Below are positions 3,457-5,112 of a stretch of 64,000 nucleotides of DNA, piece after piece. Each line of letters begins with the position of its first letter. The stretch's first letter is position 1. The notes under the pieces were generated by a model. It saw only the letters and a program-made list of their open reading frames with translations. It searched no databases and was not told where the DNA came from. This stretch comes from Pyruvatibacter sp. HU-CL02332 (GTDB lineage: Bacteria > Pseudomonadota > Alphaproteobacteria > CGMCC-115125), in NCBI RefSeq assembly GCF_040362765.1, contig NZ_BAABWK010000001.1:434001-498000 (forward strand), read 5' to 3'. The translations under genes and the position numbers were made by a program.

Positions 3457-4047
3457 TCACGGCCCTGCCGATGAGACGACAAGCAACAACCTGACTTGCC
3501 CGGTCCCTTCAATTCGAGGGGACCGGTGCAACACCGGTGATGCTGACAGAGTGCCCGGCAGAATGGCTGCCTCAAATCGATCCGGCGTCACGAAGGGCCC
3601 GTTATAGGTATCGGGGTTTTTTGAAGCCGCTCTAACCTGACCGGTCGGCACCACACATGTCGTTGCGCCTCGATAGGTGCACACCATGCGCGCTGTCGCC
3701 ACGTCAGCATGGATACGGCAGCACGCATCGTCGCTGATCCGGTCAAGACGCACACTCACCCGCTCTGTCCCCATCTGCCGTGCAAAGCCGTCGGCCAGAG
3801 CTGCACAGTCATTTGCCAGCCAGCTCTGCCAGCCAGACGGCGGTGTTTTCGCAGCAGCAAGGAGCGCTGTGACACCCAGTGCCACATCATCCGGCTGCGC
3901 CTCGAACTTGCCATTCGGCAGCTGCATGGGAGCAAGCCCGTCCAGCCACGCACCCACCTGGTGAGGCACCTGCGACCGCCGTGGAAGGCTTATCCACGGT
4001 GCGTTGGCCAGTTCGCCAACTTCTGGACATGCATCTGTGACGGTCAT
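3457..4047 (-). CDS. DUF1826 family protein
   Basis: 196 residues, no signal peptide or membrane segment visible. The segment RIHADVATARMVCTYRGATT, about residues 110-130, matches the conserved core of DUF1826: a His-x-Asp followed by a Tyr-Arg-Gly turn. No biochemical function is established for the family; it is often encoded near zinc-uptake and GTPase (COG0523) genes. Here it lies 125 bases downstream of, and on the same strand as, the His-rich outer membrane protein whose promoter carries a Zur-like palindrome. The pair may therefore be co-transcribed under zinc control (inference). Several Cys and His residues (DACCRIHAD) could bind metal. There is no strong Shine-Dalgarno, which fits translation from a longer transcript. 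Confidence 0.75.
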   Translation of the reverse strand: MTVTDACPEVGELANAPWISLPRRSQVPHQVGAWLDGLAPMQLPNGKFEAQPDDVALGVTALLAAAKTPPSGWQSWLANDCAALADGFARQMGTERVSVRLDRISDDACCRIHADVATARMVCTYRGATTCVVPTGQVRAASKNPDTYNGPFVTPDRFEAAILPGTLSASPVLHRSPRIEGTGQVRLLLVVSSAGP

Positions 4048-4172
4048 CGCTGAGCAGTCTCACTCATGCCGAATGGAGGGGGCATCTGTTTGGAAAGTGA
4101 CCGGAAGGCGACCGTCAGACCCGACATGTGAGGATTCAAGAGTCATGACGGCCACCTTCCAGGTCTGGGGGG

Positions 4173-5000
4173 TTAGAACTTCAGCTCTGCATTGAGGGAC
4201 AGTGCGAGGTCGCGGCTGCCGTTGCTTGTCAGTCCTGGCAACACAGCGAAGCGCGTTTCAAGGACACGACCACGCCCCAGATCAGCGTCGAAGTAGATCG
4301 CCGGACCGAAATAGTGCGTCTGGTCCTTGAGGTCAGGCGCATCGCCGAACGCTTCTTCCACATCACCATGGGCTTCGACGCCAAGCTTCCAGGCGTCAGC
4401 AATTGGCGTGTTGGCGCTGAGCGCATAACCAAGCCCCGCGTCCTTGCCATCTTCGAATGGAATTTCGACGAACAGATTGCCGATGATCGAGAAAGAGCCA
4501 ACGCCGAACTCGGCAATGGGGCCAAGAGCAAGTGCGCCTTTTTCAATGCCGTCCTTGTTGGGCACTTCAAGCGCCGCATAGAAGCCGACTACCGGTCCAC
4601 CGCCATGTCCGTCATGTCCGTCATGTCCATGATCATGGTCGTGATCGTGGCCACCGCCGCTTTCGCCACCCTGCCAGAGAATGAAGATATTTTCCCATTC
4701 AAAGGCCTCAAGTTCAGCGGTTTCGTCTTCCGGATTGGCAATCTCGAACGCGGCAACTGTTTTCCACCAGTCCGTGACACCGACGCCCAGTGCAATCTCA
4801 TGGACGGATCGTTCTTCGCCCGTCGGCAGGTCATCGGCGAAAAGCGTGTTGAGCGATTCAAACTCAAAACCGCCTTCCACCACTTCCGGGTGGATGACTT
4901 CAAAAATGCCGCCACTTGCCTGCGCCGGTGCCGCCAGCATGGCGCAACTTCCCGCCGCAAACACTGTTGCTGCCAACCGTTTCATTAGATGCGGTTTCAT
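4173..5000 (-). CDS. Predicted outer membrane protein with a His/Asp-rich metal-binding loop
   Basis: 275 residues from the ATG at 5000, preceded by AAGGGGG nine bases upstream. A signal peptide (cleavage near APAQA, residue 28) is followed by alternating amphipathic segments ending in LSLNAELKF. The terminal Phe is typical of beta-barrel outer membrane proteins. Around residues 118-136 there is a His/Asp/Gly run, GHDHDHDHGHDGHDGHGGG, placed like an extended loop and suited to binding zinc or another transition metal. I do not recognise a named family. The Zur-like palindrome 48-70 bases upstream and the DUF1826 gene downstream suggest a role in zinc capture or entry across the outer membrane under zinc limitation (inference). 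Alternatively it could be a metal-storage or metal-stress barrel. Confidence 0.7.
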   Translation of the reverse strand: MKPHLMKRLAATVFAAGSCAMLAAPAQASGGIFEVIHPEVVEGGFEFESLNTLFADDLPTGEERSVHEIALGVGVTDWWKTVAAFEIANPEDETAELEAFEWENIFILWQGGESGGGHDHDHDHGHDGHDGHGGGPVVGFYAALEVPNKDGIEKGALALGPIAEFGVGSFSIIGNLFVEIPFEDGKDAGLGYALSANTPIADAWKLGVEAHGDVEEAFGDAPDLKDQTHYFGPAIYFDADLGRGRVLETRFAVLPGLTSNGSRDLALSLNAELKF

Positions 5001-5047
5001 CAACCCGCCCCCTTGTCTGGATCCTGATGTAAATTCAAGCGGGAGTC

Positions 5048-5070
5048 ATAATGTTATAACATAACATTAT
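5048..5070. promoter_or_regulatory. Zur-like operator palindrome
   Basis: A perfect 10-bp inverted repeat, ATAATGTTAT / ATAACATTAT, around a 3-base centre (AAC). The core ATGTTAT-N3-ATAACAT closely resembles proteobacterial Zur boxes. It lies 48-70 bases upstream of the His-rich outer membrane protein start. Binding by Zur is inferred; no zur gene is in this window. Confidence 0.72.
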
Positions 5071-5076
5071 CAAGCC

Positions 5077-5112
5077 AAAAGAATGGCGGCCCGTGAAGGC
5101 CGCCATTCAAAA
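5077..5112 (-). terminator. Intrinsic terminator downstream of aatA
   Basis: Perfect 11-bp stem, 5081-5091 with 5098-5108, and a 6-base loop. It is flanked by A4 on the + strand at both ends, so each strand reads a T4 run after the hairpin. It lies just past the aatA stop and separates aatA from the Zur-like promoter. Confidence 0.8.

Follow-up and report, generated by a model that had tools for sequence, protein, structure and literature searches.

The window analysed here, a stretch of 64,000 nucleotides, lies in the 3.45-Mb genome of a marine alphaproteobacterium and carries an operon read on the minus strand. Its first gene (4173..5000, minus strand, stop included; ATG at 5000) encodes a 275-aa protein recognised through its homologues and a structure model as an outer-membrane barrel, and its last is a DUF1826 gene (3457..4047, minus strand; PF08856, E=2.3e-27). 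Between both genes there is a remnant of zigA, which encodes a COG0523 GTPase (4096..4146, minus strand), in which the first 17 codons, MTLESSHVGSDGRLPVT, are followed by a deletion scar, with the leftover frame stopping at 4060. A perfect 10+3+10 palindrome, ATAATGTTAT-AAC-ATAACATTAT, is found 48 bases 5' of the barrel ATG (5048..5070, no strand assigned), and it is most likely a Zur box, as argued below from its sequence and distribution. A terminator-like hairpin (5081..5108, minus strand; 12 pairs followed by TTTT) appears to end the upstream aminotransferase gene and stands between that gene and the unit formed by the box and the barrel gene. A sigma-70 consensus scan across the operon region found no promoter. 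The barrel protein starts with a signal peptide read from the sequence (4917..5000, minus strand; residues 1-28), with predicted cleavage between AQA and SGG, and both the protein start and the cleavage region are conserved in the genomes G001 and G002. It also carries the stretch GGGHDHDHDHGHDGHDGHGGG and a C-terminal Phe. A preliminary description had reported the perfect palindrome with its ATGTTAT-N3-ATAACAT core, a signal-peptide protein with a His/Asp/Gly stretch and a C-terminal Phe, and a DUF1826 gene next on the same strand, and all of these are borne out.

The gene content of the operon varies among related genomes. In G002, which belongs to the same genus, the order is box, barrel, zigA and DUF1826, with an intact zigA that scores 623.7 against a curated ZigA cut-off of 600. 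Read from the sequences, zigA is deleted between the barrel and DUF1826 genes in the window, leaving the 17-codon scar. The window's genome yielded no further ZigA-type gene; its sole CobW-family match is a 207-aa frame of about UreG size. The DUF1826 gene stands behind zigA in both G001 and G002, and in G001 the pair is found outside the barrel operon, as a separate unit elsewhere (L019, 200-943 and 919-2139) with its own one-mismatch Zur box, another one-mismatch box being found at the znu region of that genome. A second zigA-like gene was observed in G002 (L022, 40-1275 and 1486-2187), beside an apparent multicopper-oxidase gene on the opposite strand. In the sister species G003, which has a 99% identical aminotransferase, the flanking genes are adjacent and the whole barrel unit is absent: at this empty site (L075, about 1410-1500) an M48 peptidase adjoins the aminotransferase, with barrel, zigA and DUF1826 missing and zur/znu kept. 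Earlier work had already placed DUF1826 and COG0523 genes in Zur-linked clusters (PMC2770081, PMC5786701). The most telling case for a zinc neighbourhood is G421, which represents a different family of the class. Its homologue is the next gene after znuA, the two being divergent from znuC-znuB-zur, and a box with one mismatch lies in the space that separates the units. Additionally, znuA of the window's genome has as a neighbour a gene for a membrane protein (L012:9180-10160, minus strand) that weakly matches a nickel/cobalt efflux transporter model (E=3.9e-5), and a similar gene also adjoins znuA in G003.

Symmetry alone was not decisive for the identity of the palindrome, since about 0.8 palindromes with 10-bp arms are expected per window when gaps of 0-8 are allowed; for such arms and a gap of 3, any sequence being accepted, about 0.09 are expected per 64 kb. 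The sequence itself is more specific. The 17-mer ATGTTAT-N3-ATAACAT was observed once in the whole genome, where 0.0013 occurrences are expected, and the core GTTAT-N3-ATAAC was observed twice in 3.45 Mb against 0.8 expected, with no genomic match for the reversed-pattern control. The second copy of the core is intergenic, with zur-znuC-znuB on one side and znuA on the other. Since the core occurs in this genome only here and at zur/znuA, the palindrome was assigned to Zur, in agreement with its earlier description as Zur-like. Several imperfect sites were judged to be chance matches outside the regulon, namely boxes with two mismatches at C2:633364 and C2:682452, which lie within or close to pdxA/ksgA-like and chemotaxis genes, and sites with one mismatch in L086 and L085, close to accB/accC and a deacetylase. 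Among sites with at most one mismatch, no further outer-membrane protein gene with a Zur box was found.

A zur gene stands beside the second copy. The Fur-family gene adjoining znuCB matches the Zur model with E=2e-27, ahead of all Fur and PerR models, and the best PDB relatives of its product are 7dh7, a Fur-family regulator, and 4mtd, a zinc uptake regulation protein. The box also recurs in other genomes. G002 carries exactly two copies of GTTAT-N3-ATAAC, at the same two genes (the barrel gene and zur/znuA), and G003 carries one, at zur/znuA. In a Kiloniellales MAG (L025), a homologue with 53% identity has a perfect box core shortly 5' of its start. When nine such promoter regions were aligned, the conserved core was TGTTA...ATAACA, and the reported core of the Caulobacter Zur sites, GTTA-N5-TAAC, is the same as in the boxes found here (PMC4176598). 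Thus the barrel gene carries in its promoter region a palindrome of the type found at zinc genes, which, on sequence grounds, would place it in the Zur regulon.

No Pfam or NCBIfam family matched the barrel protein, and a PDB match to NDUFX (E=0.008) was set aside since it spans the His run only. An AlphaFold2 model of the mature 247-residue protein, built from an alignment of 36 sequences, is a 12-stranded barrel (mean pLDDT 90.1, pTM 0.85), with an ordered 16-residue N-terminal stretch ahead of strand 1 and only residues 86-105 below pLDDT 50. The protein had been proposed to be an outer-membrane protein of beta-barrel type, and the model agrees with this and not with a periplasmic fold. A TonB receptor consists of a 22-stranded barrel and a plug. 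The absence of TonB-receptor features noted earlier also held, given the 12 strands, the 247 residues and the lack of both a plug domain and a TonB-receptor family match. The nearest solved folds are FapF (E=1.9e-7) and the COG4313 channel Pput2725 (E=5e-6), both outer-membrane channels, with TM of about 0.65. The faces of the barrel were assigned by hydrophobicity, which differs little between faces in some strands, and the inward face as assigned has 15 Asp/Glu versus 5 Lys/Arg, an acidic lining that, in the model, would suit cations. Conservation extends over the whole barrel, with 79% identity between species of the genus.

A His/Asp/Gly-rich segment (4593..4670, minus strand; mature residues 83-108) connects strands 4 and 5. 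This turn is short in the relatives, and the His/Asp/Gly-rich insertion is found only in the branch of proteins with zinc-gene neighbourhoods or Zur boxes, called the zinc branch here. The remaining periplasmic turns have 2-4 residues and the outer loops 6-13. Because both termini are expected to be periplasmic in an even-stranded outer-membrane barrel, the connection between strands 4 and 5 would be periplasmic as well, and in the model the segment most likely faces the periplasm rather than the outside. The preliminary description had proposed zinc capture or import at the outer membrane: the barrel stands, and the loop is placed in a periplasmic turn on topological grounds. This position therefore suits the trapping or hand-over of zinc behind the pore better than its capture on the cell surface. 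All five zinc-branch proteins retain His9. The lumen His at mature position 183 had been considered as a diagnostic zinc ligand and was dropped, as it is absent in the G421 protein.

Profile searches and alignments verified that the window barrel is homologous over its full length to a family of barrels linked to FTR1. The proteins of the window, G001, G002 and the Kiloniellales MAG group into a single clade on a long stem, supported at 100/100, and the G421 protein belongs with them on account of its sequence (47% identity) and its insertion. Judged by sequence, this zinc branch is one clade of an unnamed FTR1-linked family of outer-membrane barrels, and the wider family is present in 31 of the 385 Alphaproteobacteria sampled. 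Each of the eight distant relatives in L026-L033 is accompanied by a cupredoxin gene and by FTR1, immediately upstream or fused to it. The order cupredoxin-FTR1-barrel recurs in alpha-, beta- and gammaproteobacteria (L026-L033; L069:3801-5618; L070:3876-5618), and on the gammaproteobacterial plasmids with this order the barrel is annotated as a hypothetical protein. On a conjugative Hydrogenophaga plasmid, pPBL-H3_B2-1, FTR1, a barrel annotated as two pieces, a TMEM165/GDT1-family protein and the Co/Ni exporter DmeF were observed in a row (L068:4993-8482). In nine cases, FTR1 and the barrel run through a single uninterrupted open frame, roughly 510-530 codons long (L026:5170-6735, L031:1394-2968, L032:5179-6753, L033:5155-6738, L017:6686-8272, L037, L039, L045 and L048). 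These fusions have a hydrophobic stretch ahead of the barrel, which in several ends in an AxA-type site resembling that of signal peptidase, and they could possibly be polyproteins cut into inner- and outer-membrane parts. Such linkage was rejected as a universal rule, since many of the more distant members in Alphaproteobacteria lack FTR1 within 1.5 kb. Within the zinc branch FTR1 is neither adjacent nor fused, the neighbours being zigA/DUF1826 or znuA, or neither. No relatives were found on viral contigs, a viral fold library returned generic barrels only, and a search of open-licence papers found no description of the barrel family.

Taken together, the gene probably encodes a Zur-repressed, TonB-independent outer-membrane entry pore for zinc, with a periplasmic loop that collects zinc for ZnuA. 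The regulation and the fold of the barrel are well supported, and zinc transport is inferred. When zinc is scarce, Zur would leave the box at 5048-5070, so that the barrel and the DUF1826 protein, together with ZigA where it is kept, would be made along with ZnuABC. Zinc ions would then enter the acidic lumen of the 12-stranded barrel, probably with the N-terminal segment inside it, as in COG4313 channels. The flexible His/Asp-rich periplasmic segment would bind the incoming zinc, block its back-diffusion and pass it to ZnuA. More broadly, the barrel of the wider family is possibly an overlooked outer-membrane part of FTR1 iron systems. A unifying proposal, on which we find the evidence evenly poised, is that one unrecognised barrel family supplies the outer-membrane step both for FTR1 (iron, with cupredoxin) and for ZnuABC (zinc), the zinc branch having been re-tooled into a TonB-independent zinc entry pore when one turn gained a His-rich periplasmic trap and the gene came under Zur control.

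Several observations count against the zinc-pore reading. The zur gene scores under the curated NCBIfam cut-off of the Zur model, the box at the barrel gene of G001 is weak, and the sister species G003 lives without the operon. The zinc branch is also rare, its profile matching 2 of 398 sampled genomes across the phylum, the window's own included. Additionally, the lumen face and the side of the loop were deduced from strand order and hydrophobicity, and the insertion of the G421 protein is poorer in His, with 4 His and many Asp/Glu. Finally, none of the closest characterised fold relatives is proposed to carry metals: the suggested cargo is hydrophobic molecules for COG4313 (PMC4493636) and amyloid subunits for FapF.

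The main doubt concerns the role of the barrel itself, which could conduct zinc or serve only to anchor a buffer. A Zur-regulated periplasmic zinc buffer, in which the barrel would be mainly an anchor and the His-rich segment would store or relay zinc that enters elsewhere, is unlikely but deserves weight, since the segment has low confidence in the model, is probably disordered and occupies the position of a periplasmic turn, and since PcoB, a copper barrel, has a disordered His-rich region whose roles go beyond the pore (PMC12509749). However, a buffer needs no pore, and both the conservation of the whole barrel and its acidic inward face speak for one. We regard as rather improbable a Zur-regulated channel for a zinc chelate or a small organic zincophore instead of free zinc ions. 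Such a channel would account for the Zur regulation, and transport of organic molecules has been suggested for the COG4313 fold relatives (PMC4493636), but the loci examined show no zincophore genes beside the gene, the inward face is acidic and the relatives pair with an ion permease, FTR1. Although PcoB is likewise an outer-membrane barrel with a His-rich segment (PMC12509749), a metal efflux barrel of that type is very improbable, considering that the box is common to the barrel and the zinc uptake operon, that the G421 homologue follows znuA, and that no efflux pump, P-type ATPase or multicopper oxidase gene is adjacent in the loci examined. If the spacing may vary freely, a perfect palindrome this long is no rarity, but a coincidental palindrome at a gene unrelated to zinc is scarcely credible when the motif is shared genome-wide with zur/znuA only, is kept 5' of the same gene in other lineages and accompanies both zigA/DUF1826 and znuA operon contexts.

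The entry pore for zinc is the preferred reading. What is known of zinc crossing the Gram-negative outer membrane concerns mostly TonB-dependent receptors, and apart from them the step is ascribed to unspecific porins (PMC4176598, PMC6103462). If the preferred reading is true, a small barrel under Zur control, equipped with its own periplasmic metal trap, would represent a dedicated passive zinc route, placed in the znuA operon itself in the G421 lineage, and the wider cupredoxin-FTR1-barrel operon would suggest that FTR1 iron systems have an outer-membrane part overlooked under the annotation of hypothetical protein. ZnuD of Neisseria and ZnuK/L/M of Caulobacter (PMC4176598) are also Zur-controlled outer-membrane barrels for zinc entry, but they are TonB-dependent, whereas the window barrel is small and plugless. 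The cupredoxin-FTR1-linked barrels share about 26-29% identity and a common EAFEWEN region with the window barrel; they differ in having no His-rich insertion, in having FTR1 as partner and not znuA/zigA, and in showing no Zur box in the stretches fetched. FapF (5o65/5o67/5o68) is the best fold match, with 8% sequence identity, and it serves amyloid secretion with no zinc regulation. COG4313/Phenol_MetA_deg channels (PF13557), such as Pput2725 (4rl8, PMC4493636), likewise have 12 strands and a residue stretch before strand 1, but their proposed role is hydrocarbon uptake, whereas the context here is metal and the window protein has a His-rich insertion. The PF13557 profile does not match the window protein, and 2 of the 36 relatives match it weakly (best E=5.6e-5). 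PcoB/CopB (PMC12509749) is an outer-membrane barrel that needs a disordered His-rich region to handle metal, a precedent indicating that such segments can matter; its region is N-terminal and not in a turn, it serves copper efflux, and it is absent from the best 50 fold matches of the window barrel. Lastly, MspD of Mycobacterium smegmatis (PMC13098993) is an MspA-type porin from another protein family and envelope, but it is induced by zinc starvation and by zur deletion, and this precedent demonstrates that a non-TonB porin can be under Zur control.
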